From Saprospiraceae bacterium (lineage in GTDB: Bacteria > Bacteroidota > Bacteroidia > Chitinophagales > Saprospiraceae), in contig JAHDHH010000002.1 in assembly GCA_020631405.1 (NCBI GenBank), positions 1 through 64,000 of the forward strand: a DNA stretch of 64,000 nucleotides, in the 5' to 3' direction. The notes below the pieces were generated by a model. The model was given only the letters and a program-made list of their open reading frames with translations. It had not been told where the DNA came from and did no database searches. The position numbers and the translations under genes are program-made. Positions 274-51,073 of the stretch are shown one piece after another; the first letter of the stretch is position 1; each line of letters opens with the position of its first letter.

Positions 274-1368
274 CTATAAGTCATCATAAGTTATCGCCAC
301 ATCAGCAGACATAGGATGAGATTGGCAAGTCAGAATGTATCCGTTTGCTATTTCCTCATCGTCTAAAGAGAAGCAAGTTTCCATTTCTACTTTTCCACTC
401 GTGGTCTTAGCCATACAACTAGCACATGCACCTGATGTACAGCTGTAAGGTGGGCTTTTGTCCATGTCTAAGATAGACTCCAGGATAGTTTTTTCTTTGG
501 ATACATTGACTGTGAATGTATCGCCATCAAGAGTGACAGTTACGATACCTTCTCCTGCTACATCCTTAGATTTTCCTGCTCCATCAGTTGTAAAGTATTC
601 TTTGTGAATAGCCTTTGTCGGTACTCCTTGAGCGACGAGACTTTGCTCTACGGTCTGGATGAGATTACCCGGTCCACACACGTAGTAATGAGCTTCTTTG
701 TCGTGAGTTGGGTGTTCTCTTAAGTAGTAGTTGATCTTGTCTGCATCAATTCTACCTGTTAGGCCTGACCATGCTGAATCTTTGTTCTTCTTCAGAAAAC
801 CAAATACACCCTTGGATTGCTTGACCTGAGATAGGGTATGTGTGACAAATAGTTGTCCTTCGTGCTTAGCTACTAAGGCATCAAATTCAGTCTTGAAGAT
901 AATATTATCCTCAGTCTTACTCCCATATAGCAAGTGTATCGTTGACCTTTCTTCGTATTCTAGTAACGTCTTAATCATGGACATCACAGGCGTGATCCCA
1001 CTCCCTGCTGCGAAGAAGTAGTGTACCTTACTCTTGTCTGCCTCTGGTAAGACGACGAACTTACCCTCAGGAGCAAGTATCGACAACGTATCACCCGCAT
1101 TGACTTGGTCATTGAGGTAGTTTGATACCTTTCCTCCTTGGACTCGCTTTATAGAAAACTTCAGACCTTCCTCATAGGTAGCACTAGAAAGTGAATAGGC
1201 TCTTCTCAAGGTTTCACCATTCACCACCACTTCTACGGTAAGGTATTGTCCTGCCTTATAAGTAAAGGCTTGCTTAGCTTCTTCTGGAATATTGAGGACT
1301 ATCGACTTAGTGTCTGCCGTCTCTGTTATCACATGTTTTACTGTGAGTGTATACATTGTTTGACTCAT
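274..1368 (-). CDS. PaaE-like ferredoxin-NADP(+) reductase with C-terminal 2Fe-2S domain
   Basis: A 364-residue electron-transfer flavoprotein: an FAD domain (RAYSLSS at about 56-62 binds flavin), an NAD(P) domain (GSGITPV at about 122-128, CGPG at about 231-234) and a plant-type 2Fe-2S domain with Cys310, Cys315, Cys318 and Cys348 (C-x4-C-x2-C...C). This order is that of the PaaE/HmpA-like class that passes electrons from NAD(P)H to an oxygenase or desaturase. No paaABCD genes are nearby, so phenylacetate degradation is not supported and the partner is unknown. The start ATG is 5 nt from a TAnnTTTG box, which suggests a leaderless mRNA. It is transcribed divergently from the ABC-F gene. Confidence 0.9.
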   Translation of the reverse strand: MSQTMYTLTVKHVITETADTKSIVLNIPEEAKQAFTYKAGQYLTVEVVVNGETLRRAYSLSSATYEEGLKFSIKRVQGGKVSNYLNDQVNAGDTLSILAPEGKFVVLPEADKSKVHYFFAAGSGITPVMSMIKTLLEYEERSTIHLLYGSKTEDNIIFKTEFDALVAKHEGQLFVTHTLSQVKQSKGVFGFLKKNKDSAWSGLTGRIDADKINYYLREHPTHDKEAHYYVCGPGNLIQTVEQSLVAQGVPTKAIHKEYFTTDGAGKSKDVAGEGIVTVTLDGDTFTVNVSKEKTILESILDMDKSPPYSCTSGACASCMAKTTSGKVEMETCFSLDDEEIANGYILTCQSHPMSADVAITYDDL

Positions 1369-1373
1369 AATTT

Positions 1374-1381
1374 CAAAGATA
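1374..1381 (-). promoter_or_regulatory. Bacteroidota -7 box TATCTTTG abutting the reductase start
   Basis: On the minus strand TATCTTTG matches the TAnnTTTG element exactly. Only 5 nt separate it from the ATG at 1368, so the predicted transcription start falls on or next to the start codon. No clear -33 TTTG was found at the usual 19-nt spacing. Confidence 0.5.
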
Positions 1382-1548
1382 GAGTGATTGTTTCAAATCA
1401 CTTGAGTTTCGGGTTGAATACTTGTGTTCTAGGATGCTTACTTAACGCTTTCTACTAGATCAGAATACTATTCACAAACAAGAAAGGCGTAAAACAGTTC
1501 ATAGATTCAAGAGTTGAACAAATAAACAGCACTTAGATGTAGAATATA

Positions 1549-1556
1549 TAACTTTG
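1549..1556 (+). promoter_or_regulatory. Bacteroidota -7 box TAACTTTG abutting the ABC-F start
   Basis: TAACTTTG matches TAnnTTTG. The preferred ATG (1563) begins 6 nt after it. This argues against the TTG start at 1554, which lies inside the box, and suggests a leaderless transcript. Confidence 0.5.
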
Positions 1557-1562
1557 CCAACC

Positions 1563-3425
1563 ATGCAGCTACTGAAAATTCAAAACGGAAATAAGAGTTA
1601 CGGAGAGAAGATATTGCTCAAGGATCTCAACTTGACAATATCTCAGGGAGATAAGATTGCACTAGTGGCAAAGAATGGAAGTGGTAAGACCACCTTGCTC
1701 AAAATCATTGCTGGAGAAGAGTCGCTAGACGGTGAAAATGCCTATATCGAGATATCTGACAAGGCTAATCGCTACTACCTGAAGCAAGTTCCAGAATTTC
1801 ACCCTTCAGACACTGTGGAAGACGTCATCTACAATAGTAATAACGAAAAGATTCAGACGGTATACAAGTATGAAAAAGCCATAGCAAGTGGCAATGAAGA
1901 GGAGATCAGAGTTCTATCTCAAACACTAGATGACCTCAAGGCGTGGAACTTTGGCTCAAGGATCAAAGAGGTACTGGATAGGTTGAAGATTAAAGATTTT
2001 CAAAAGGAGATGCAGATGCTCTCTGGTGGACAGCAAAAAAGGGTTGCCCTTGCTCAGATGTTGATAGTAGAGCCAGACTTCATTATCCTAGATGAGCCAA
2101 CTAACCACTTGGATTTAGAAATGATAGAATGGTTAGAAGAGTATTTACAGAGTAAGAATCTAACTCTCTTCATGGTGACCCACGATAGGTATTTTCTCGA
2201 AAGAGTCTGTACTGACATCATAGAATTGGAACAAGGTGATATCTTTCGTCACAAGGGTAACTATACAGAATACCTGCAGAACAAAGAACTTAGGCAGCAA
2301 AATGACCAGATCAAGCATGAGAAATCAAAGAAACTCTACAAAAAAGAGCTAGAATGGGTCAGAAGAATGCCAAAGGCAAGAGGGACTAAGGCAAAGTCTC
2401 GAGTTGGTGCATTTGACGATATCAAAAAGGAAGCAACTAAGCGAAGAGAGAGTGATACCTTCTCCATATCGCTAGACTCGAGTAGACTAGGATCTAAAAT
2501 CCTAGAAGCACATGCCCTGACTAAGTCTTATGGTGACATGAATATGGTGGAGAACTTTACATACAAGTTTAGCAAGGGTGAGAAGATTGGAATCGTAGGG
2601 AATAACGGGGTAGGTAAGTCTACCTTCCTCAATTTATTGACTAAGGAGATTAGACCTGATGGTGGCAAAATAGTAGTTGGTGACACTATCAAATTTGGAT
2701 ACTATACCCAAGACGGACTCAAGCTTCCAGAAGATAAGCGAGTACTAGACGTCATCAGAGATATTGCTGAGTTTATTCCGTTAGAAAAGGGCAAGAAGTT
2801 GACCGCAGAGTCTTTGTTGGAGGCGTTTCTTTTTCCAAGGTCGCAGCAGCAAGTCTATGTATCTCAGCTCAGTGGTGGTGAAAAGCGAAGGCTCTACTTA
2901 TTGACCATATTGATGGAAAATCCCAACTTCCTCATCCTGGATGAGCCTACTAACGACTTAGACATCATCACGCTTAACATCCTCGAAGAGTACTTAGTGA
3001 GTTTTCCTGGCTGTCTGATAGTCGTGACACATGATAGATACTTTTTGGATAAGGTAGTCGACCACCTCTTTATCCTAGAGGGCAATGGAGTCATTAAAGA
3101 CTACAATGGTCTTTATATGGAATATAGGGCAAGTAAGACTGCAGAGAGGTATGACGAGGTCAAGGCTGATGTTCCAGCCGAAAAGCCAAAACAGGTAGAT
3201 AGGGAAAAGCAGAAGCAACTCAAGAATAAGATCAACAAACTAGAAAAGACTCTTGCTGATCTTCAAAAGCGAAAGGCTAAGATCAATGAAATCTTTCTTA
3301 CACTAGAAGATGTGGACGAGATCACTAAACTGTCCAAGGAACTACAACACATCGATGACGACTTAGAAAGTACAGAGATGGAGTGGTTTGAGGCTAGTGA
3401 AGCGATGGAAGAAATGATCGGATAG
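1563..3425 (+). CDS. ABC-F family ATP-binding protein (Uup/EttA-like)
   Basis: A soluble duplicated ATPase of 620 residues from ATG 1563. The first nucleotide-binding domain has a P-loop KNGSGKTT (about 37-44), LSGGQQKR signature and DEPTNHLD Walker B. The second has GNNGVGKST, LSGGEKRR and DEPTNDLD. The lysine/arginine-rich linker between the domains is typical of ribosome-acting ABC-F proteins, and a C-terminal coiled coil (about 545-610) resembles Uup. There are no membrane segments, so it is not a transporter. Expected role: resolving ribosome states or a tolerance function; the subfamily cannot be fixed by eye. A TTG nine bases upstream is a less likely start. Confidence 0.92.
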   Translation: MQLLKIQNGNKSYGEKILLKDLNLTISQGDKIALVAKNGSGKTTLLKIIAGEESLDGENAYIEISDKANRYYLKQVPEFHPSDTVEDVIYNSNNEKIQTVYKYEKAIASGNEEEIRVLSQTLDDLKAWNFGSRIKEVLDRLKIKDFQKEMQMLSGGQQKRVALAQMLIVEPDFIILDEPTNHLDLEMIEWLEEYLQSKNLTLFMVTHDRYFLERVCTDIIELEQGDIFRHKGNYTEYLQNKELRQQNDQIKHEKSKKLYKKELEWVRRMPKARGTKAKSRVGAFDDIKKEATKRRESDTFSISLDSSRLGSKILEAHALTKSYGDMNMVENFTYKFSKGEKIGIVGNNGVGKSTFLNLLTKEIRPDGGKIVVGDTIKFGYYTQDGLKLPEDKRVLDVIRDIAEFIPLEKGKKLTAESLLEAFLFPRSQQQVYVSQLSGGEKRRLYLLTILMENPNFLILDEPTNDLDIITLNILEEYLVSFPGCLIVVTHDRYFLDKVVDHLFILEGNGVIKDYNGLYMEYRASKTAERYDEVKADVPAEKPKQVDREKQKQLKNKINKLEKTLADLQKRKAKINEIFLTLEDVDEITKLSKELQHIDDDLESTEMEWFEASEAMEEMIG

Positions 3426-3991: not shown

Positions 3992-4882
3992 TTAAGTGTA
4001 ATTCAGAGCTGCTAATATTGCTTCAAATTCAAGGTTGACCTTGTCTATAGTCTCTGGTTTAAGCTTCTTGAGGTAGTCACCTGGTGCCTTGCTTCGGATA
4101 TGGGAGGTCTCTTCACCGGATGGCTTGACGGCATGTTCTGCAGCCTTCAACGATCGAATAAGGTCTTCCGGGACTGTGTCCAAAGCTAAAAATACCATCA
4201 ATTGGTCTAACCATCTATCAAAGTCAGTCACCAAGAGTTCGTAGGGTAGGTTACAGACTGATGGTTGGTGAAGTAGGTGGTCAATATAACCTTGGTAGAC
4301 AGCTTTGACCACTGGGATGTAGTCTAGGACAAATTCGTCAATGGTATGGTCTTCGTAGCGCTTTCTATCAGCGTAAAATTCCTTACTTATCACAATGTGA
4401 CTGAACTTCTTAGAATAATAGAATGATGTCAGTACGTCTCTTGGATCTCTCAACACAAGGATGGATTTATACTGACTTAATGCCTCTATTGGGTAGTACT
4501 CTCGAAGTGGTCCTAGGTAGTAGCCTTTTGGGTTGAACACTGCCTTTCGCTTATTCTCATCAGCAAAGTACTGCTTTGGATTGATGCTTTTTACAGAAAA
4601 ATAAGCTTCCACGTCTGCTGTAGCCATTTGGTTAGCTTGCGCCAGTTGGGCAAGTATGGTAGTAGTGTAGGTAGAGGCACACTTTTGTGTAGTCCAGAGT
4701 AGGATACTTGGATGTTGAGAACTGGTCTTGAGTCGCTTGTTGAGTAGTTGTTTCTCATTGCTGTAGCGAAACCACGTTAATGGCTTAACTACAAGATACA
4801 AGAAGACTAACGGAAACCGCAGTCGAAACTGGGTGACGAGTGAATTGCTCTTTGCCGCCTTGACTATTTGCTCGATGATCAC
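3992..4882 (-). CDS. PAPS-dependent sulfotransferase
   Basis: A 296-residue protein with the two PAPS-binding signatures of the sulfotransferase superfamily: a 5'-phosphosulfate loop TTQKCASTYTT (about 64-74) and a 3'-phosphate motif LRDPRDVLTSFY (about 144-155). It would transfer sulfate from PAPS to a hydroxyl of a carbohydrate or other acceptor. The start GTG overlaps the stop of the Wzy-like gene by GTGA, implying translational coupling. With CysC, CysD and CysN made from the same strand a few genes upstream, the glycan of this cluster is the likely acceptor. This is an inference from context; the family also sulfates lipids and small molecules. Confidence 0.88.
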   Translation of the reverse strand: MIIEQIVKAAKSNSLVTQFRLRFPLVFLYLVVKPLTWFRYSNEKQLLNKRLKTSSQHPSILLWTTQKCASTYTTTILAQLAQANQMATADVEAYFSVKSINPKQYFADENKRKAVFNPKGYYLGPLREYYPIEALSQYKSILVLRDPRDVLTSFYYSKKFSHIVISKEFYADRKRYEDHTIDEFVLDYIPVVKAVYQGYIDHLLHQPSVCNLPYELLVTDFDRWLDQLMVFLALDTVPEDLIRSLKAAEHAVKPSGEETSHIRSKAPGDYLKKLKPETIDKVNLEFEAILAALNYT

Positions 4883-6072
4883 TCGTGGTGTTTTCTGGTC
4901 AGATAAAGGCTATTGCCCAATAAGAAGCCTACTATTGCGGTCATCAATGGGAATGCTGTTAGCAAAATTAATAATAATGTGATACAAGCAAAAAGATGTG
5001 TATCCTCAAACAATTGGCCTCGGAAGCACAGCACTATTCCAATAGGAATCAAAAACCCAAAAATGCCAAGCTGGAATATGATACTTCCTATGCCGCTTAG
5101 TATCCGAGTATAGTCGTCCCTGGTAAAATAGAGGAGGAGCTTGGTAAACTCTGTCTTAGGTAGCCGAAACTGCTCCTGCATATACGCATTGAACTTATTG
5201 TATCCTCTTGGGAGGAATTGATTATCGACCATACCTTTGAATGAGTAGTAGACAAACATAAACCGCTCACTCACACTACCATCCGCTGCAAGAAACAGTA
5301 CGGGATTAGCCACAAGCTCTTCTGCAAGGTTGTAGATTCTCTGGTCTTTCAGGGTCTCGTAAGTCGCCTTGTAAGTGATAAAACCTATGGCAAGTACTAT
5401 GACAGCATACCCAACAGCTCGCTTATTGAACAAGAGGAGTTTGACTCCAATAAAAGCAGCTATCCCTACCGCTAGAGTAAGAGCAGCTGTGGCTGATTGT
5501 GCTAACATGATTAGTTGGAAGAGGAGGAGGATGAGGACCCACCATACCTTCTTCAATGGATAGTTAATCAATCCTATGATAGCAAATAAGATACACATGG
5601 TGCCATATTGCGAGGGTTCTGTAGAGATACTTGTGACACCTCTTACCTCCGAGTCAATACCACGACCGCCGCCATTGAGTAAGAAAGTCATAAAAAAGGG
5701 ATAGACGTAAGTCTGTACAACACCAATAAACAACCAAATCAGATTGATACCAGCATAGAACTTAAAGTCTAGTTTCTTGACTTCATAGAACGAAACATAG
5801 GAAGCCCAAGTCACCAGGAGGATCGAAAAATAGTTGGCGACATCTCTGAGACTATTGAAATTGATTGGATTGAAGCAGAGCAACAGTAAGGCGAAGACTA
5901 AACAAGCTCCGAACAAGTATATCGACAAAGGCAACTTCTTTCTATAGCAAAGTGCTATTGGGATGATAGAGAGCAGCAAGGCATTGGGTTGGGTATCTGT
6001 ACCCAACTTTAGAAAATCTAAAAATGGGAAAAAGCAAAAGATGAAGAAGAGGTATATGAATAGCTTTTTCAA
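4879..6072 (-). CDS. O-antigen/exopolysaccharide polymerase-like membrane protein (Wzy/Wzx-cluster)
   Basis: A 397-residue, strongly hydrophobic protein with about ten to eleven predicted membrane segments and a large periplasmic loop near residues 235-330 rich in charged and aromatic residues, the usual layout of O-antigen polymerases and ligases. Sequence motifs in this family are weak, so the call rests on topology and on its place between two flippases and a sulfotransferase. It starts at TTG 6070-6072 (MKKLFIYLFFIF), 6 nt after a TAnnTTTG box, so it may head its own leaderless transcript. Its end overlaps the sulfotransferase start. Confidence 0.75.
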   Translation of the reverse strand: MKKLFIYLFFIFCFFPFLDFLKLGTDTQPNALLLSIIPIALCYRKKLPLSIYLFGACLVFALLLLCFNPINFNSLRDVANYFSILLVTWASYVSFYEVKKLDFKFYAGINLIWLFIGVVQTYVYPFFMTFLLNGGGRGIDSEVRGVTSISTEPSQYGTMCILFAIIGLINYPLKKVWWVLILLLFQLIMLAQSATAALTLAVGIAAFIGVKLLLFNKRAVGYAVIVLAIGFITYKATYETLKDQRIYNLAEELVANPVLFLAADGSVSERFMFVYYSFKGMVDNQFLPRGYNKFNAYMQEQFRLPKTEFTKLLLYFTRDDYTRILSGIGSIIFQLGIFGFLIPIGIVLCFRGQLFEDTHLFACITLLLILLTAFPLMTAIVGFLLGNSLYLTRKHHE

Positions 6073-6078
6073 TGACTA

Positions 6079-6086
6079 CAAAGATA
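6079..6086 (-). promoter_or_regulatory. Bacteroidota -7 box TATCTTTG abutting the polymerase start
   Basis: TATCTTTG on the minus strand, 6 nt from the TTG start of the Wzy-like gene. Same sequence and nearly the same spacing as the box of the PaaE-like gene (1374-1381). Confidence 0.45.
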
Positions 6087-21151: not shown

Positions 21152-21231
21152 CTGCATTTGCACTTGGATAAGGAAGGAAAGCGAAAGACACCCTATTTCT
21201 TGAAGGATTAGAAATCATCAAATTGAATAAG

Positions 21232-24200
21232 ATGACTAGGGAAGTGTTATGTTTTATCAAAGAGGTATTTGTATTACCTACTTTAGTTGCCAGCAGTGTT
21301 GTATTCATATTACTATGTACCTCAATCGTCGTCGTTGCGCAACCAAGTAATGACGATTGTATCAATGCAATAGAATTATTTAGCCCCTGTAATCCAGTCG
21401 TTGGAACAATAGAAGATGCTACTGATTCTGGGATTAATGATTGTCCGGGAAACTCTAACAATGATGTTTGGTACTATTTTATTGCCAATGCTGAATCGTA
21501 TGAAATTGAGGTTGATGGATTTGGCAATTTTATATTTGGATTTGATGCTGTAATTGGTGTATATACAGGAGACTGTAATAACCTATCTAATGTAGACTGT
21601 GAAGACGGTTCTTTTTTTGGTGGTGCCACGGAAGACCTTACGCTTACAGGTTTGACTATAGGACAGACGTATTATATACAAGTTTATGATTTTGATAATA
21701 GCGACCCAAGTAATGAAGGGTTTGATATTTGTATTGAAGAAATCGTAGGTGACTGTGGGCAGTCTAATGTACAAGCAACAATACTTTCTTGTACAAACTG
21801 CACGATTAATGATGGCTCAGCGCAAGGAAATCAGTTTGGGGATCCTAATTTGGAAGTCACAGCAAATGGATGTGGTCCCGTCACCATATTACTAGAATAT
21901 TCATTTGATTGGACACAAGGTAGCGGAAATAACTGGATTCATGGTATTTCTTATACAGCAGGCCCAGCATGGACAGGATTCGAGGACTTTACTCCACCGG
22001 GATGGATATTCATGCCAAATGGGGTTACTGGCTCTTGCAGTGGGGATTCATATGGACCAGGATATTACTACGATACTCCACAAAATGATGACTCCTCTTG
22101 TGGTGGCGATGTAGATGATTCCAACCCAGGAGATAATTGGGGAGTAGATTGTGGTCTCGACTCTAACGATGGAGATTGCCCTAATTTTCAATTTGAATTG
22201 ACCTATTGTACTAATAATTCTACACCTACCCAATTTACAGAAAGCGTCTCCTTCTCAGTGACAGAGGATGGCGCTTCAGGAGGATGGGATATTAATGGGT
22301 TTTGTAACCTTGAGAACTTTTTCAATGTTACTATCAACAGTGTCTGTGGTCCACAAGCAGATTTTGCTGACCCACCTGTAGATTTTTGTACAGCTCCTAA
22401 TTTTGACTTAATGAATTCTACTGGAGGATATGATATAGGAACTGAGTGGACTGGCAGCGTAGTTATAGGAGCAGGGGACCCCAATGCTAGCATGAGTTAC
22501 TGTGATAACATTGGAAATACAACCCTTTTCCATACTGTTGGAGAAAATGATTGTTATGATGGTCCTAGCGTACAATCATATGAAGTGTACGAGCCAGAGA
22601 TACAGAATGTTATGGTTAGTGCTACTGAAGGTTGTGGGGATACAGAAGTAATGCTCTCGGCGGATGTTGACATTGTTAATATCGCTGGTTTTCAAGATTG
22701 GTTTACAACAGTCTCAGAAGGAGGTAATACAGGGGCAGGTACCTTAGAGTTTGTAGATCAAGATGGAGCAACCTATGTGCCAGGGATGATCACACTGACT
22801 GCAGAAGCTTGTGAGGAAAAAATCTACACACTAACTCCTCAACTGAATACTGGATGTGCTGCATGCGATGTAGTAGGACCTCCTATCATGGTTACAGTCT
22901 ACCCATCTTTTACCCTAGACTTACTGCCTATGGCAGAATGTGGAACAGCATATGCCCATGTACTTGGTACTGACGGTACTATCTGTGATATGGTCGAAGT
23001 CAATTGTCCTAATCCAGGAGATATTGCATCAGCAGCTTATGACTTCATGGAAGCAGTTGGTACTGCATGTGTGTTAGATGTTAATGGGATGATAGAGTGT
23101 TCGTGTTATATTTGCAACGCGGATGCAGGCACAGTAGATCCAGTGCCACCCACCTGTCTAGATGATATTTTTACTGTAACTGTGAGTGGATATTTTGATG
23201 ATCCAGATTATGTTGAGTATGTATTAGTAGTTGATGATAGTGGGGTAATCATAGAGTTTGGTCCGCCTCCTTATGATTTCGCAGCATCAGTATGTGAGGA
23301 CTACTCATTCTACAGTTACAACTATGATAGCAACGACCCACTCGTTGTCTTACCAATGGCAGGAACAACAATAGTCAATGATATAGATTGCACAGTTGCC
23401 TGTTGTGATTTGACAGGACCAGTAGTTCAAACTTTCGGAGAGACGGGAAGTGTTATGCTTAATGTGCCTCCTGACGTTACTGTCGAATGTGATGTAATAC
23501 CTACAGAAGACGGATCAGGGGCATCTATCTCAGGAAATACCTGTCCCGTTGACCTGGTCTTTGATGGTGAAACTATAGATCCGGGTTCATGCCAGTACGA
23601 TTATACTGCTACATATCAGTGGACTGCAACCGACGAATGTGGCAATGTCATAGTAGAGGATTACACCATTACGGTTGAGGACACAACACCTCCGACCTTT
23701 GACAATCCACCTACACCTGTGCCGGATATCCTCTGTGGAGGTGTTCTGCCACCACAGGAGACATTAACAGGGTCTGACAACTGTGGGACTGTCATGATTA
23801 CGGAGTCTGCTTCGCCATTTACACCCGACGATTGTGCTGGATACTCAGTAACCTATACCTGGGATATTGAAGATGAATGTTCAAATAGTGATCAAACTAG
23901 TTTGACAATTACTATTCTTGGTGATCCTGACCCGCCTCTGCTTATCGTACCTAATGATATTGTAGTCTCATGTGAATTGATTCCTTCAGAGGATGGGAGT
24001 AGTGCTACGGCTACAGACAACTGTACTGAAGATGATGATATAGTGATCATATACCAAGGAGAAACCGATAATAGTGCCAGCGGGTGTCCATATGAAATCA
24101 TCAGGACTTGGAATGCAGTCGACCTTTGTGGAAACGATACTGGCCCAATCACTCAAACAATTAATGTTCAAGATACCGAACTACCAATAATAGAAAATGT

Positions 24201-27200
24201 TCCTCCTGATCTTACTCTTAACTGTATTTCAGAATTTGATATAACCATTCAAGATCTCAATTGGACTGACAACTGTGCTTTAGGTGGTGTGGCCATTGGA
24301 GTTCAAGACCCAGTTGATGTCACTGTTTTTAATTGTGCTGGAGGTACAATTACACGAACTTGGGAAGTGACTGATGACTGCGACAATACCACAACAGAAA
24401 TACAAACGATTACCATAGAACCTTATCCAGAAGTGATGTGGGTTAATCCTCCTGGACCGGTTGTGCTTTCTTGCTCAGATCCGATACCGTCTATAGATCC
24501 AAATGATTATCCACTTGGTTATGCAAGTTCAGGGACTGGATGTACTGAAACAGGAACAGTCAACCCCTCAATTATAGGCATGATAACAACATGTAATACC
24601 ACGATGACCCTTGAGTGGACATACACGGATATGGAAGGCTGTAGTACCATTACACATTCACAAGTATATACACTTATTGACGCAGATAGTCCAGAATTGC
24701 AAAATGAACCTGCTGATATTACCTATGATTGCTTTGCTGACCTGCCACCGATGACTAACCTAGATTGGATAGATACTTGTGATGGGACAAGTACGGCTAT
24801 AGGTGTAGAAAATGGCACTATCACTAATTGTGAAGGAGGAAATATTACCAGAACATGGGTAGCAATTGATGCTTGTGGCAACCAAGATTCCCATACACAG
24901 AATATTACAGTTTTACCTGTACCAGATATTACTTGGACGACCAGTTTACCTCCTGCTCAGATAAGTATAGAATGCATGATACCGTTAGTCATTCCAGATG
25001 CCATTGACCTAGACTATGCAAACAATGCTACTGTTATTGATTGCGAAGAGTCCGGTACAGTAAACGCAGTCGAGTCTGGGGCATTGACAACATGTGGCAG
25101 TCAACTTGTCCGAACGTGGACTACTCCAAATCCGGACTGCGGTCCACCATTAGTTTTCATACAGACATTAACGCTAGAAGATACATCTCCACCAGTATTT
25201 ATTAATACCCCGCCGCCAGCGTTAAACTTGACTTGTATCAATGATGTGCCAACTACCGTCGATCTTACCTGGGAAGATACTTGTGACGGAACAGGTACAG
25301 TACCTTATGTCGAGACAGGATCACTTGACCCTTGTACTGGAGGAAGTATTAGTAGAACATGGGAATACACAGATATCTGTGGAAATGGACCTGTACAATT
25401 CGTGCAAGTTATCTCCCTAGTACCACCTACTCCAATGGCATGTGACGACATAGATGCTTGTACTATAAATGATATGTTGATTGTTGACTGTAATGGCACA
25501 ATATGCCAACCTTGTCAGGGAGAAGTTACTGATTGTAGCGGCGAGACAGAATTGGTAGCATGCGATGATATAGATCCATGTACCATCAATGATGTCATAG
25601 AACTTGCCTGTGATGGTACGATCTGTACACCTTGCCAAGGAGAGGTCACAGATTGTGATACAGGGTTGACTTTTCAAGAGCCATGTTCTGATGATGACCC
25701 ATGTACCATCAATGACATGAGGACTATCGATTGCCAAAATCAAATTTGTATTCCTTGTACTGGTACACCAAACCCTACACCTGACCCTTCATTATCAGGT
25801 CCGAGTCTTGTCTGCGAAGGAGAACAAACTACGCTATCAGCCACAGGATGTGCTGGAGATGTGATTTGGTATGATGATCCATTAGGTACTAATATAATCA
25901 ACATTGGGCCTACATTTGATACTCCAGTGATTACTGGACCTGTTACCTTCTATGCGATATGTGACGTTGATGGATGTGAGTCTAACCTAGTTTCCATAGC
26001 CCTTGATATTATACAGCCACAGCTACCTACAGTTACAGGAGATGATGTCATTTGCAAGGATGAGTTGTCCATCCTTGATGCTGGACCAGGCTTTGTGAGC
26101 TATGATTGGGGTACAGGGACAGGGCAGACCTTGACAGTCACGATGTCTGGAACATATACTGTGACTGTGACAGATAGTAATGGTTGTGTAAGTACAGATG
26201 ACTTTACTGTACAGGTAATTGACCCACAAATACCAAACATTGGAGGGTCTTTGACTTATTGTATTGGCGGTAGTACAACACTCAGTTTGGGTACTGACTT
26301 TGTAGATTATATCTGGAATCCAAATGGAGAAACAACCAATTCAATAGATGTCAGTGTTTCTGGAACTTACTCAGTAACCACCACTGATAGCAATGGTTGT
26401 ACCGCTAGTTCGTCGGTGCAAATATCGGAATCTAGCACACTAGATCCACAGATTATTGGTAGCCTTGTCCTTTGTGAAAACGAGGCGTCTGTGCTTTCAG
26501 TAGGATCTTTTTCGACTTATACTTGGTCACCAGGAGGAGAGACAACAGCAAGTATTAATATCAATGCAAGTGGCACTTATTCGGTCTTGGTCACAGATTC
26601 TAATGGTTGTACTGGTACGAGTTCAGTCAACATTATAGATAATGACATATCTCCTGTAATGATAGTAGGAGACGATCTAATATGTGAGGGGACATCTACA
26701 ACACTAGATGCATTTGGAATAGACTATACAAATTATCAATGGTCAAACGGTAGTGTCAATTCTTCTGTATCAGTAATGGATGATATTGACTACACGGTAC
26801 AAGTGACAGATATCAATGGTTGTACTTCCTCCAGTACAATATCAATTGATTATTACCCAACAACTGCATTAGTTATAGAGGGGGACTTAATTATATGTCC
26901 AGGACAGTCAACAACACTGTCCTCCCAGTCGGTCTATGACCAGTATAGTTGGTCACCAGGAGGAGAAACTACATCCTCTATACTAGTAGGAAGCGCAGGC
27001 ACTTATGTCTTAGAAGTCACTGATAATAATGGTTGTACTCTTTCCAGTTCGGTCAACGTGACATCTCAATCAGACTTACAAGTCTTTATTCAAGGCAGTT
27101 TGTCTTATTGTGTCGGCTCAAGCACAGAATTAGACGCCGGTAATTGGACATCTTACCAATGGAGTCCAAATGGAGAAATAAGTCAAGTAATTACAGCGAA

Positions 27201-30200
27201 TGCAGAGGGCAATTATTCAGTACAGGTTACTGATGATAATGGTTGTCAGTTTTCATCTACTGTAAATGTGATAGAAGATTCAGAGTTATCTCCTACCATT
27301 TATGGTGATTTTTTGACTTGTGAGAATTCTGAAGTAGAGATTTTTGTATTGAGTGCTTCTTATTCTAACATAGTCTGGAGTGACAATACTGTAGGGGATT
27401 TTATCTTTGTAGGTCCTGGAACATATACTGTCACAGTTACGGATAATACTGGGTGTACTGGGTCATCTACAGTAACAGTCACAGAGCAAGAAGTAAGTGA
27501 TGTTTCAATAAGCGGATTGACTGAGATTTGTCAAGGTAATACAACAGAATTAGTAGCAGATGCTGGGTTTGATGACTATGTCTGGTCTAATGGATTGACC
27601 TCAGAGAGTATCATAGTCAATGTTTCAGGTGTCTATGACGTAACTGTCACAGATGATGTGGGATGTACTGCAAGTTCTGAGGTATTGGTTGAGGTTTCTA
27701 CAATTACTCAACCCAACATAATAGGTGACACACAATTTTGTGCTACTGGTAGTACAAACTTATCTGTAAGCGGATACTCATCATACCTCTGGAGTACTGG
27801 AGAGACCAATGCAAATATAGAAGCAACAAGTCCAGGTAGTTATTCGGTTGTAGTGACAGATATCTTTGGTTGTACTAACAGCTCAAGTATTTCTATAATA
27901 GAAAATAGTCTTCCTAGTGTACAGATTCAGGGTTCTAATTCTTATTGTTTAGGAGGGTTTACTGAGCTATCTGTTGATAATGGGTTTGACTCTATACTCT
28001 GGAGTACAGGACAGACTACACCTACTATACAAGTAATGCAAGAAGGTGTTGTAGAGGTTGTGGTTACTGATATCAATGGCTGTAGTGCAAGTTCGATGGT
28101 AGCTATCGTAGAGTCCACAGAGCTATCGCCAACAATATCAGGCATACTCACAGTATGCCAAGGAGGTCTTACTACATTGATCGCAGATGGAAACTATCCA
28201 ATGGTTGAGTGGAGTACAAGTGAATCTACAGAGTCCATTGAAGTTGGAGAAGGGGATTATACTGTAACAGTGACAGATAACTCTGGTTGTACAGGGAGTT
28301 CGGAGGTTACAGTAAGTAGTCAGCAAGCAGCAGATGTTTCCATATCTGGAGACAATGAGTTTTGTGAAGGGTTTACTACTCAATTAGATGCTTCTAGTGG
28401 TTTTGTACTCTATCAATGGACTGGTGGAGTAATGGGTGCAACCTTGACTGTAACATCAAGTGGAATGTATGGAATAACAGCAACAGATGCCATTGGGTGT
28501 ACTGCCACTTCGTCAATACAGGTAAACAGCGTGAGCCTCAATCCTCCAACTATCCTTGGAGATACTCTCTTTTGCGAGGATAGTGTTACTACTCTTGATG
28601 GTGGTCAATATGCTTCTTACTCATGGAGTACCACTGAAACAACACCTAGCATTATGGTAAACGAGTCTGGACAAATTGCTTTGACTGTCACTGATGACAA
28701 TGGCTGTACCAATAGCACAGCGGTGATTGTACAAGCTCAAGCTCTTCCAGAACCGGTTATAGTAGGGTCTACATCTTTTTGCCTGGGAGGTTCGGCGTCA
28801 CTTAATCTTGACCAATCTTATGTATCAGTGCTATGGAGTACTGGTGAATCTACTCCGACTATTACTACTTCTGATATTGGTACTATTTCAGTAATTGTCA
28901 CTGATGTTATTGGGTGTACTGGATCGTCAGAGGTAATGATATCTCTAGAAGAGTTCTTATCACCAAATATCGGCGGCGACCTTGAGTTTTGTTCAGGAGA
29001 GACCTCTACATTAGATGGGGGTGGAGCTTTCGAAACATGGGTATGGAGTACTACTGAAACAACACAAACTATTGATGTTACTCAAGCAGGGTCTTATTCT
29101 GTGACAGTCTCAGATGCTACAGGCTGTACTGGGTCGTCAGAGGTAGTAGTCACAACACTGCAGAATCCAGAACCTACGATTACAGGTCAACTAGAGCTCT
29201 GTCTCAATCAAACGACAACATTGGGTGTTTCAGAAGAGTATACAAGTTACTCATGGAGTGACGGTGAAATATCTGATACTACCCTTGTATCCATTGCAGG
29301 TACGTATTCTGTGATGGTTACGGATTCCCTAGGATGTGTTGGATCTTCTCAGGTTGATGTCGTCATTTATCAACTTCCAATGGTGGGTATAGAGACAGTC
29401 TGCGACCCAACCATGCAATTTTATTCTGTAGTTGTAAATACTGATGGAGATATCGTCACTGCTGGCGCAAATACTGTGACCAATACTAATGGCCAATTTG
29501 TAATAGACAACATCGAAACAGATACAAGTGTGGAGGTATATATTCAGAACAGTGCTACTTCTTGTGATACAACTATCAATGTTTTGCCTCCAAACTGTGA
29601 TTGCTTAGCTATTGCCGATGCAGGGTCTAATCAAGAAATTAATTGTGATGAGCCATCTACCTTACTTGGAGGACAGGATACCAGTATTGGTAGTGGCTTT
29701 TCTTATATCTGGTACAATGAAGATGGCGATATTGTAGGTAATGAAATCACCTATACTGCAAGCCTTGGAGGTATATACACCCTAGAGGTAGTCGATGAGT
29801 CTAATGCTTGCTCGACTTCAAGTACAGTTGAAGTCATAGACACCAGCAACGAACCAATAGCAATCATCTATGCACAACCAGATAATGTTATTGATTGCGT
29901 AGTGGACGTTGTTACTCTCTCTACGGATGCTCAAACTAATGTGGAATATACCTGGATTGTTGGAAAGCTAGAAACTACAAACAATTTACAAATCGAAATC
30001 ACTGAGCAATCAAGTGTGACCCTCATGGCGGTGGATACGATTACAGGTTGTTCTGCTGAGTCATCAGTATTTATAGAGGATCAAGAAGAATATCCTTTAC
30101 TATTGATTGGTAATCCAGACATATTGACTTGTATCAATACAGCTATTACTATTGACGCCTCTGGTTCGCAATCAGGTGTAGATATAGTCTACCAATGGTA

Positions 30201-31365
30201 TGACGAAAGTGGACCTATAGACTTAGAAAATGGCAATACTCTCGATGTATTCCTTGATGGAACCTACTTCATTGAAGCGATAGATACCACTAACAACTGT
30301 ACTAATATTGATTCTGTAGAGGTAGTACTGGTCGAAAATTTTCCAAGCATAAGTGCCTCTGAGGATACCATACTTCCTTGTGATCAGGACGAAATTAATT
30401 TGAATGTTAACTTGACTTCTTCAGAGACAGTCCTCTACAGTTGGACTACAGAGGATGGCAATATTCTTGGAAACACTAACGATACTTCTGTTGCGGTCAA
30501 TGCGTCTGGGTGGTACTATGTTGTTGTAGAAGATGCTCTTAGCGGCTGTACGACTATTGATTCAGTATTTGTTGATGGTAATGTTCCGCCTAGTCTTGCC
30601 GAACAAGACATTATTCAACCTATCTGTGCTAATCCAGAGGGAGGAGAGATAGTAGTAAATCTCAGTAGTGGAGGTACTCCACCACTAACATACTCTATTG
30701 GTGATGATCAAAACAGTACTGGAGTATTCACAGGGCTTGGACCAGGTAGTTATACGGTTCAAGTTGTTGATGCATTGGGATGTTCTGCCGATACTACATT
30801 GGTACTTGAAAGCTTGAATGAGGTGGAACTTGGGGTTGACGAACCCTCAATTAACTCGACCTATGGCGGCACAGAGACTATTGAATTGATCACTAATGTG
30901 CCTGAATCAGAAATAGCTGAAGTGCAATGGTCTCCGGTACTTCCATTTGACTGTATTAATTGCTTAACTCTCACGTTTGAGAATATCACAATGAGCCAAG
31001 AATACTTAGTGACCTTGATTGATATAGAAGGATGTTTGGATACGACGTTCTTCCAGTTTATTATCGAACAAGAAGAAGATATTTTTGTGCCAAACATTGT
31101 CAATCCTAACAATGATGTGAACAATACTTTCTACCCACTATCTGGAACTGATGGAGTGATAGTGAAGCAGATGCAGGTCTATGATCGATGGGGTAATTTG
31201 GTATTTATTGGAAGTGACTTTGAGACTAATGATCCGCAGTTTGGTTGGGACGGCACATTCAATGGTGTTCAAGTAGAGGCTGGTGTCTATGTGTACTACT
31301 TCGAATTTGACTTCCCAGGATTGGGTAGTATTGTCAAGGCAGGAGATGTCACTGTGGTGTTCTAA
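21232..31365 (+). CDS. Giant modular secreted protein with 16 Ig-like repeats and T9SS type B (gliding-associated) C-terminal domain
   Basis: About 3,377 residues from ATG 21232 (an in-frame TTG lies 9 nt upstream). Order: signal peptide (hydrophobic 10-35, cleavage near VVAQ); a domain with NDDCINAIELFSPCNP and VWYYFIANAESYEIEV; cysteine-rich regions; HYR-like modules about 745-1390 (ATDECGNV, EDTTPPTF); three tandem Cys-rich modules about 1405-1516 (CDDIDACTIND type); sixteen Ig-like repeats of about 70 residues, 1597-2724, each with a G-x-L-x-x-C start, a YxWSxGE core and a YxVTVTDxxGCT end; further PKD/Ig-like domains; and a C-terminal VYDRWGNLVF...GVYVYYFEF domain that directs T9SS export. 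Probably a cell-surface or released adhesin or matrix protein. No enzyme domain was found. No stop or frameshift interrupts it. Confidence 0.93.
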   Translation: MTREVLCFIKEVFVLPTLVASSVVFILLCTSIVVVAQPSNDDCINAIELFSPCNPVVGTIEDATDSGINDCPGNSNNDVWYYFIANAESYEIEVDGFGNFIFGFDAVIGVYTGDCNNLSNVDCEDGSFFGGATEDLTLTGLTIGQTYYIQVYDFDNSDPSNEGFDICIEEIVGDCGQSNVQATILSCTNCTINDGSAQGNQFGDPNLEVTANGCGPVTILLEYSFDWTQGSGNNWIHGISYTAGPAWTGFEDFTPPGWIFMPNGVTGSCSGDSYGPGYYYDTPQNDDSSCGGDVDDSNPGDNWGVDCGLDSNDGDCPNFQFELTYCTNNSTPTQFTESVSFSVTEDGASGGWDINGFCNLENFFNVTINSVCGPQADFADPPVDFCTAPNFDLMNSTGGYDIGTEWTGSVVIGAGDPNASMSYCDNIGNTTLFHTVGENDCYDGPSVQSYEVYEPEIQNVMVSATEGCGDTEVMLSADVDIVNIAGFQDWFTTVSEGGNTGAGTLEFVDQDGATYVPGMITLTAEACEEKIYTLTPQLNTGCAACDVVGPPIMVTVYPSFTLDLLPMAECGTAYAHVLGTDGTICDMVEVNCPNPGDIASAAYDFMEAVGTACVLDVNGMIECSCYICNADAGTVDPVPPTCLDDIFTVTVSGYFDDPDYVEYVLVVDDSGVIIEFGPPPYDFAASVCEDYSFYSYNYDSNDPLVVLPMAGTTIVNDIDCTVACCDLTGPVVQTFGETGSVMLNVPPDVTVECDVIPTEDGSGASISGNTCPVDLVFDGETIDPGSCQYDYTATYQWTATDECGNVIVEDYTITVEDTTPPTFDNPPTPVPDILCGGVLPPQETLTGSDNCGTVMITESASPFTPDDCAGYSVTYTWDIEDECSNSDQTSLTITILGDPDPPLLIVPNDIVVSCELIPSEDGSSATATDNCTEDDDIVIIYQGETDNSASGCPYEIIRTWNAVDLCGNDTGPITQTINVQDTELPIIENVPPDLTLNCISEFDITIQDLNWTDNCALGGVAIGVQDPVDVTVFNCAGGTITRTWEVTDDCDNTTTEIQTITIEPYPEVMWVNPPGPVVLSCSDPIPSIDPNDYPLGYASSGTGCTETGTVNPSIIGMITTCNTTMTLEWTYTDMEGCSTITHSQVYTLIDADSPELQNEPADITYDCFADLPPMTNLDWIDTCDGTSTAIGVENGTITNCEGGNITRTWVAIDACGNQDSHTQNITVLPVPDITWTTSLPPAQISIECMIPLVIPDAIDLDYANNATVIDCEESGTVNAVESGALTTCGSQLVRTWTTPNPDCGPPLVFIQTLTLEDTSPPVFINTPPPALNLTCINDVPTTVDLTWEDTCDGTGTVPYVETGSLDPCTGGSISRTWEYTDICGNGPVQFVQVISLVPPTPMACDDIDACTINDMLIVDCNGTICQPCQGEVTDCSGETELVACDDIDPCTINDVIELACDGTICTPCQGEVTDCDTGLTFQEPCSDDDPCTINDMRTIDCQNQICIPCTGTPNPTPDPSLSGPSLVCEGEQTTLSATGCAGDVIWYDDPLGTNIINIGPTFDTPVITGPVTFYAICDVDGCESNLVSIALDIIQPQLPTVTGDDVICKDELSILDAGPGFVSYDWGTGTGQTLTVTMSGTYTVTVTDSNGCVSTDDFTVQVIDPQIPNIGGSLTYCIGGSTTLSLGTDFVDYIWNPNGETTNSIDVSVSGTYSVTTTDSNGCTASSSVQISESSTLDPQIIGSLVLCENEASVLSVGSFSTYTWSPGGETTASININASGTYSVLVTDSNGCTGTSSVNIIDNDISPVMIVGDDLICEGTSTTLDAFGIDYTNYQWSNGSVNSSVSVMDDIDYTVQVTDINGCTSSSTISIDYYPTTALVIEGDLIICPGQSTTLSSQSVYDQYSWSPGGETTSSILVGSAGTYVLEVTDNNGCTLSSSVNVTSQSDLQVFIQGSLSYCVGSSTELDAGNWTSYQWSPNGEISQVITANAEGNYSVQVTDDNGCQFSSTVNVIEDSELSPTIYGDFLTCENSEVEIFVLSASYSNIVWSDNTVGDFIFVGPGTYTVTVTDNTGCTGSSTVTVTEQEVSDVSISGLTEICQGNTTELVADAGFDDYVWSNGLTSESIIVNVSGVYDVTVTDDVGCTASSEVLVEVSTITQPNIIGDTQFCATGSTNLSVSGYSSYLWSTGETNANIEATSPGSYSVVVTDIFGCTNSSSISIIENSLPSVQIQGSNSYCLGGFTELSVDNGFDSILWSTGQTTPTIQVMQEGVVEVVVTDINGCSASSMVAIVESTELSPTISGILTVCQGGLTTLIADGNYPMVEWSTSESTESIEVGEGDYTVTVTDNSGCTGSSEVTVSSQQAADVSISGDNEFCEGFTTQLDASSGFVLYQWTGGVMGATLTVTSSGMYGITATDAIGCTATSSIQVNSVSLNPPTILGDTLFCEDSVTTLDGGQYASYSWSTTETTPSIMVNESGQIALTVTDDNGCTNSTAVIVQAQALPEPVIVGSTSFCLGGSASLNLDQSYVSVLWSTGESTPTITTSDIGTISVIVTDVIGCTGSSEVMISLEEFLSPNIGGDLEFCSGETSTLDGGGAFETWVWSTTETTQTIDVTQAGSYSVTVSDATGCTGSSEVVVTTLQNPEPTITGQLELCLNQTTTLGVSEEYTSYSWSDGEISDTTLVSIAGTYSVMVTDSLGCVGSSQVDVVIYQLPMVGIETVCDPTMQFYSVVVNTDGDIVTAGANTVTNTNGQFVIDNIETDTSVEVYIQNSATSCDTTINVLPPNCDCLAIADAGSNQEINCDEPSTLLGGQDTSIGSGFSYIWYNEDGDIVGNEITYTASLGGIYTLEVVDESNACSTSSTVEVIDTSNEPIAIIYAQPDNVIDCVVDVVTLSTDAQTNVEYTWIVGKLETTNNLQIEITEQSSVTLMAVDTITGCSAESSVFIEDQEEYPLLLIGNPDILTCINTAITIDASGSQSGVDIVYQWYDESGPIDLENGNTLDVFLDGTYFIEAIDTTNNCTNIDSVEVVLVENFPSISASEDTILPCDQDEINLNVNLTSSETVLYSWTTEDGNILGNTNDTSVAVNASGWYYVVVEDALSGCTTIDSVFVDGNVPPSLAEQDIIQPICANPEGGEIVVNLSSGGTPPLTYSIGDDQNSTGVFTGLGPGSYTVQVVDALGCSADTTLVLESLNEVELGVDEPSINSTYGGTETIELITNVPESEIAEVQWSPVLPFDCINCLTLTFENITMSQEYLVTLIDIEGCLDTTFFQFIIEQEEDIFVPNIVNPNNDVNNTFYPLSGTDGVIVKQMQVYDRWGNLVFIGSDFETNDPQFGWDGTFNGVQVEAGVYVYYFEFDFPGLGSIVKAGDVTVVF
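25437..25770 (+). repeat. Three tandem cysteine-rich modules inside the giant gene
   Basis: Three successive modules of about 35-40 codons, each with a CDDIDACTIND-type opening, a xxDCNGTICxPC middle and an acidic TDC end. Related modules (CDDGDACTSND) appear in the metalloprotease at 59767-62817. Confidence 0.7.
26014..29394 (+). repeat. Sixteen tandem Ig-like coding repeats of about 211 bp
   Basis: Counting the recurrent YxVxVTDxxGCTxSS motif gives sixteen copies over about 3.38 kb, or 70.4 codons each. Copies are diverged at DNA level; short words such as ggttgtac and tactgg recur but no long perfect repeat was seen. This argues for old duplication under selection. Confidence 0.85.
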
Positions 31366-50122: not shown

Positions 50123-50150
50123 GAAAAACATAACATTCTACTTTTTAGAG

Positions 50151-50188
50151 ATAGAGTTATTAGAAATAATAACTCTATTTTTGTTTTT
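50151..50188 (+). terminator. Strong terminator running into the nadK start
   Basis: A perfect 12-bp stem ATAGAGTTATTA (50151-50162) with TAATAACTCTAT (50167-50178), a GAAA tetraloop and a T-rich tail to 50188. The ATG of nadK begins at the next base. Confidence 0.85.
50176..50183 (+). promoter_or_regulatory. -7 box TATTTTTG overlapping the terminator and abutting nadK
   Basis: TATTTTTG matches TAnnTTTG and lies within the terminator T-tract, 5 nt before the nadK ATG. Initiation here would give a leaderless nadK mRNA. The T-rich context makes a chance match possible. Confidence 0.4.
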
Positions 50189-51073
50189 ATGTCGACTAAC
50201 AAAGTACTCATCTATGGTCAAAGGCTGGAGCCAAGGGACCTCAGCTATGTAGAAACGATCTCTACAGCACTGACTCAATATGGCTATAGCATCTATACCT
50301 CTCCAGAATATCACACCTTACTAGCAGCTAACCAGCTAGATACAAGATATGACATACAGGCTGACCCAAACCCAAGAGGCGATGGGTATTTAGCGTTATT
50401 TTCATTGGGAGGCGATGGGACGATACTCAATGCTTCTAAGTGGATAGGCGATGGCTCAATCCCAATACTTGGCATCAACCTTGGTAGATTAGGCTTCCTA
50501 TCCTCGATAGAGAACACCAAGATCAATGAAGCTGTAGCCCAATGGCATGAAGGACAGTTTGAAATAGCACGGAGGGGCATGCTCAGACTCGATTGTGATA
50601 GACCATTGTTTTCTGACTTTCCCTATGCCTTGAATGACTTTACCATCCATAAGAAGGATACATCTTCAATGATTACTATCCACACTTACCTGAATGGTGA
50701 AGAGTTAAATAGTTACTGGGCAGATGGATTAATCGTCAGTACTGCAACGGGATCGACAGGATATTCGTTAAGTTGTGGAGGACCTATTGTATATCCAGGA
50801 TCGGGAAATATTGTCATCACACCAGTAGCTCCGCATAACCTAAATGTGAGGCCGATGGTACTCCCTGATACGGTGGAGTTGAAATTAGAAGTAGAAGGAA
50901 GGGCAGACTCGTTCTTGTGTACATTGGATTCAAGATTTGAAACCATAACAAAAAGTGATACTTTAACAATCAAAAAAGGTGACTTTGACACTAGGATGAT
51001 CAGTCTAAAGGACCAAAGCTTTATGAAAACCATCAGGAATAAACTTTCTTGGGGCTTAGATAAAAGAAATTAG
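50189..51073 (+). CDS. nadK: NAD kinase
   Basis: 294 residues. Phosphorylates NAD+ to NADP+ in the cytoplasm. The diagnostic GGDGT motif lies in LFSLGGDGTILNASK, followed by LGINLGRLGFLS, then TGSTGYSLSCGGPIVYP and ITPVAPHNLNVRP. N-terminus, length and C-terminal beta-sandwich are all normal, supporting the first ATG although it directly follows a terminator. The stop overlaps the GTG start of the next gene by one base. Confidence 0.96.
   Translation: MSTNKVLIYGQRLEPRDLSYVETISTALTQYGYSIYTSPEYHTLLAANQLDTRYDIQADPNPRGDGYLALFSLGGDGTILNASKWIGDGSIPILGINLGRLGFLSSIENTKINEAVAQWHEGQFEIARRGMLRLDCDRPLFSDFPYALNDFTIHKKDTSSMITIHTYLNGEELNSYWADGLIVSTATGSTGYSLSCGGPIVYPGSGNIVITPVAPHNLNVRPMVLPDTVELKLEVEGRADSFLCTLDSRFETITKSDTLTIKKGDFDTRMISLKDQSFMKTIRNKLSWGLDKRN

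Follow-up and report, generated by a model that had tools for sequence, protein, structure and literature searches.

The window analysed here is a 64,000-nt stretch of DNA from a Saprospiraceae bacterium. It lies at the very start of a contig of 143.6 kb in a genome of 3.79 Mb, and the G+C content of the sequence read is 39%. Four genes in the window are preceded by an exact TAnnTTTG box (Table 1): a divergent pair encoding a PaaE-like ferredoxin reductase and an ABC-F ATPase, a gene for a hydrophobic protein read from a TTG codon, and the NAD kinase gene nadK. The boxes lie at the positions given in the preliminary description, 5, 6, 6 and 5 nt from the start codons, whereas the two divergent starts are separated by 194 nt (1369-1562) and not by 185 nt as stated there. 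Elsewhere in the window, a 55-nt sequence occurs twice (1-55 and 177-231; 100% identical, 176 nt apart). Its beginning resembles a tRNA 3′ end (GTTCGAATCCCTCCAGTCTCA), and it ends in a terminator-like hairpin; no complete tRNA was found in the window, and the repeat may represent a tRNA gene truncated at the contig end together with a copy of its 3′ part. The largest ORF of the window, of 3380 aa, occupies positions 21223-31365.

Table 1. Boxes, genes and hairpin at the four loci of the window
Feature	Position	Strand	Remarks
PaaE-like ferredoxin reductase gene	274..1368	-	FAD/NAD domains and 2Fe-2S ferredoxin
Candidate -7 box TATCTTTG	1374..1381	-	exact TAnnTTTG, 5 nt before ATG 1368
Candidate -7 box TAACTTTG	1549..1556	+	exact TAnnTTTG, 6 nt before ATG 1563
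ABC-F ATPase gene (EttA/Uup type)	1563..3425	+	
Gene for hydrophobic 397-aa protein	4879..6072	-	conserved in the genus
TATCTTTG	6079..6086	-	exact TAnnTTTG, 6 nt before TTG 6072; doubtful promoter
Terminator-like hairpin	50147..50182	+	16 bp, T-rich tail; -17.8 kcal/mol, z -4.28
Candidate -7 box TATTTTTG	50176..50183	+	exact TAnnTTTG, 5 nt before ATG 50189
NAD kinase gene (nadK)	50189..51073	+	NF002521, 356.6 bits, cut-off 309

To place these boxes in a genomic context, we recorded the distance d, in nt, from TAnnTTTG to the first ATG in 1.84 Mb of the window's genome. A simple codon-based home-made script called 1210 genes in this sample, so that some genes were missed, and genes without a same-strand gene at most 60 nt upstream were taken as the first of their unit (n = 833). 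Two backgrounds were used, namely shuffled upstream sequences (0.60 boxes per position) and the rate before all ATG trinucleotides. Among the 833 first-of-unit genes, 25 boxes were found at d = 4-6, compared to 1.8 expected from the shuffles and 1.6 (1.61) from the ATG trinucleotides. This peak was separate from the leadered genes, which formed a broad hump of 81 boxes at d = 16-30; 8 boxes lay at d = 7-9 and only 6 in the valley at d = 10-15. A single box was found at d = 0-3, a near-absence that fits this picture, as such boxes would start transcription within the coding sequence. When the window was excluded, 22 boxes remained at d = 4-6 (Poisson P 3e-17), and another start rule gave the same picture with 19 boxes, the peak being stable under two or three start rules. 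Of the surplus of boxes over background up to 100 nt from the start, those at d = 4-6 accounted for 13% (95% bootstrap 8-19%). Another genus of the family showed the peak as well, with 6 boxes at d = 4-6 (P 4e-9) and 4 at d = 7-9 in 400 kb; few TAnnTTTG boxes were present in the pooled GTDB Saprospiraceae loci. The histogram had been proposed in the preliminary description as a check on its view that the recurrence of the spacing exceeded chance, and the sharp peak bears this out genome-wide; the window alone is hardly a test. Of the four window loci, only those at 1368, 1563 and 50189, and not TTG 6072, count towards the genome-wide enrichment.

We also compared raw counts of box-5nt-ATG and box-2nt-ATG in the whole genomes of 118 members of the phylum. 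Most families showed no clear difference between the two, and the excess of box-5nt-ATG was clear only in some of them (285 vs 175 in family f10 and 171 vs 62 in family f30). The window's own genome showed no excess at d = 5 in these counts (84, vs 87 at d = 2), presumably because it was swamped by matches inside genes. In four genomes, G135, G121, G125 and G133, the excess of box-5nt-ATG was large (32 vs 3, 32 vs 6, 21 vs 2 and 25 vs 5, respectively), which suggests lineages richer in leaderless genes.

The near boxes look like the promoters of leadered genes and unlike chance matches. The form TAHHTTTG, in which neither free position is a G, made up 96% of 26 boxes at d = 4-6 and 87% of leadered boxes, compared to 53% of the 1090 intragenic boxes (P 3e-6 for d = 4-6 vs intragenic boxes), and all four window boxes fit it. 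Avoidance of G at both free positions is also a property of the mapped -7 elements of Flavobacterium johnsoniae (PMC6847099). Likewise, the A+T fraction 5-8 nt upstream of the box was 0.79 at d = 4-6 and 0.80 for leadered boxes, compared to 0.54 inside genes. The TTTG/TTG element near -33 was not enriched even at leadered boxes, a TTG in that region being present at 12% of the d = 4-6 boxes, 22% of the leadered boxes and 20% of those inside genes. Since this element is weak or not findable in the mapped promoters of F. johnsoniae as well (PMC6847099), its absence does not exclude that the near boxes belong to sigma-ABfr. In the leaderless class, a T preceded the start codon in 64% of cases vs 37% (P 0.01). 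The spacer was not significantly poorer in A than that of other genes (P 0.07 and 0.59), and an A-poor spacer was therefore dropped as a mark of leaderlessness. Members of the set start nearly always with ATG, but the search favoured ATG; GTG and TTG made up 12% of the first-of-unit starts called.

Conservation differed among the window loci. At the divergent pair, the boxes are partly conserved in the genus sequences compared. The reductase ortholog in G003 reads TATCTTTG-cctg-ATG, with a 4-nt spacer, that in G002 has no box, and that in G001 was unreadable at a contig end. Upstream of the ABC-F gene, where TAACTTTG is the sole exact plus-strand box in the divergent gap, the orthologs in G001 and G003 have the one-mismatch form TACCTTCG at 7-8 nt, and that in G002 has no box. 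G002 thus retains the gene order yet lacks both boxes, and the divergent pair does not hold as a conserved unit. At four distant loci from other families, an exact box was seen 4-5 nt before an ABC-F start. The 397-aa protein gave no NCBIfam or Pfam match, and its orthologs in all three genus genomes examined (3/3) start with ATG or GTG and have no box at 4-9 nt. With the box in 0/3 genus orthologs and the TTG start not conserved, TTG 6072 is not supported as a leaderless member, and for that locus alone a chance match or a wrong start call is somewhat the likelier explanation.

By contrast with TTG 6072, the nadK box was kept in 4/4 genus genomes, at 5 nt in the window's own genome, 4 nt in G002, 5 nt in G001 and 7 nt in G003, and the upstream sequence was otherwise different in two of the four. 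Outside the genus, no exact box was found at 4-9 nt before nadK. In the window's genome and in G002, where the hairpin region is near-identical, the hairpin's 3′ arm and T-rich tail overlap with the box. From its sequence, the hairpin looks like the terminator of the preceding gene, and because of this overlap promoter and terminator seem to share bases. In G001 and G003 the box is not built from a hairpin tail.

Exact boxes before orthologs in relatives were counted for the leaderless-type genes lepA, guaA and nadK in 20 genomes, comprising the window's own, three of the genus and the rest from the family and order. An exact box was present at 4-8 nt before lepA in 16/20 genomes and at 4-7 nt before guaA in 10/20. 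With the probability of a chance box at 0.4% in each genome, 16/20 is essentially impossible by accident, although the genomes share ancestry. Protein alignment fixes the starts of both genes at or adjoining that codon. In many families the lepA box lies at 6-8 nt and not at 4-5 nt. We then scanned lepA across the class in 395 genomes for TTTG only, not the full box, 0-30 nt before the start, and obtained matches in 211/395. Among the 130 matches listed, 61 lay at 4-9 nt, 4 at 0-3 nt and 23 at 10-15 nt, and the 4-9 nt spacing occurred in 33/48 families among the matches listed. In family f68 all ten genomes listed had TTTG at 16-19 nt, and in family f16 it lay mostly at 14 nt; judged by this spacing, lepA is probably leadered in both.

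Besides the window genes, the set includes guaA, lepA and genes for an SMC protein, NAD synthase, phosphoglucomutase, panD, an amino-acid kinase, a photolyase, a uracil-DNA-glycosylase-type protein and RsmE- and RlmI-type RNA methyltransferases, some of these names being derived from family matches. The leadered genes include some whose products were recognised by their N-terminal sequences as seryl- and glycyl-tRNA synthetases, a prfC-like factor and another ABC-F protein. Because translation genes are thus also found among the leadered genes, no functional bias is claimed for the leaderless set.

The positions, the peak, the promoter signature and the conservation observed argue that the near boxes are -7 elements of sigma-ABfr, the housekeeping sigma factor of Bacteroidota, giving leaderless mRNAs that form a small distinct class, a reading to which we assign a probability of about 85%. 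In F. johnsoniae, RNA starts 4-5 nt past the box (PMC6847099); by analogy, a box at 4-6 nt would place the RNA 5′ end at the start codon or no more than 2 nt off. Sigma-ABfr would use an ordinary -7 box lying 4-6 nt from the gene, transcription would begin on the A of the start codon or at most about 2 nt away, and the ribosome with initiator tRNA would recognise the 5′-terminal AUG without upstream contact. We infer that the near-box genes are translated by this leaderless route, and they would stand beside the usual leadered genes as about 3% of first-of-unit genes (exact box) and about 13% of detectable boxes. The defined leaderless set that had been predicted from the window is accordingly retained as a class, on the strength of the peak, its lower edge, the valley, the signature and the conservation at lepA, guaA and nadK; TTG 6072 is not supported as part of it, and the other three window loci are plausible members.

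The leaderless mRNAs might in addition be regulatory, their expression tracking initiation factors or 70S ribosomes, which would add to the preferred explanation and not exclude it. In other systems, leaderless translation is sensitive to the ratio of IF2 to IF3 (PMC10783764), and the set includes lepA, the ABC-F ATPase and the RsmE- and RlmI-type methyltransferases; the occurrence of translation genes among the leadered genes counts against such a role, which we regard as unlikely, and nothing was found in favour of the start-codon-coupled regulation raised in the preliminary description. It is still less probable that the promoters are real but start RNA a few nt off, yielding leaders of only about 3-8 nt, which the normal leadered route would translate. 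The box-to-start spacing is known from other Bacteroidota only, and the 6-8 nt spacing of lepA in many families would suit such leaders. Against them, the distribution breaks off sharply below 4 nt and has a valley at 10-15 nt, as expected if leaders of about 5-10 nt are disfavoured. Finally, an origin of the near boxes in chance or in wrong start calls is highly improbable and, for the class as a whole, already refuted: TAnnTTTG is a frequent motif overall (70 in the window vs 53 expected) and starts are predictions, the reductase gene having a second in-frame ATG at 1356 and TTG 6072 not being conserved, but the peak persists under two or three start rules and without the window, the boxes avoid G where the motif leaves the base free, and protein alignment pins down the starts of lepA and guaA.

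Leaderless mRNAs as such are an arrangement of a known kind in a known phylum. They make up 5.5% of mapped mRNAs in Flavobacterium psychrophilum (PMC9723704), about 3.7% of 5′ UTRs are under 10 nt in Bacteroides thetaiotaomicron (PMC7366714), and in F. johnsoniae the figure for leaders of at most 10 nt is 13% (PMC6847099). The phylum, the -7 box and the low share of genes are common to those cases and ours, whereas those were mapped by RNA-seq and ours rests on position, signature and conservation. A 2011 survey of TA-led leaderless genes counted genes with a -10-like box some 10-12 bp upstream of their start as leaderless, searched for the sigma-70-like TANNNT, and assigned leaderless genes to only 1/37 Bacteroidetes/Chlorobi genomes (PMC3160421). 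A box close to the start is thus read as leaderless in both studies, and it is the use of TAnnTTTG in place of TANNNT that makes the class visible here. The newest element is the recurrence of the arrangement at lepA; an open-access literature search found no description of recurrent leaderless lepA or guaA across an order, which leaves such absence unproven. In mycobacteria the share of leaderless genes is far higher, and the sigma factor differs from that of the window's bacterium. There, too, leaderless genes are a normal feature of the genome (PMC4633059).

We tentatively consider, while thinking it rather unlikely, that leaderless lepA and guaA are old and selected in many Bacteroidia families and that the supply of the ribosome factor encoded by lepA, elongation factor 4, is coupled to the cell's ability to initiate on leaderless mRNAs (by a 70S or IF2-driven route). 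To our knowledge, Shine-Dalgarno sequences are not used in Bacteroidota, and start-codon choice in the phylum is still debated. A test based on sequence alone splits leaderless from leadered genes, and lepA, guaA and nadK provide concrete genes for measuring leaderless initiation.
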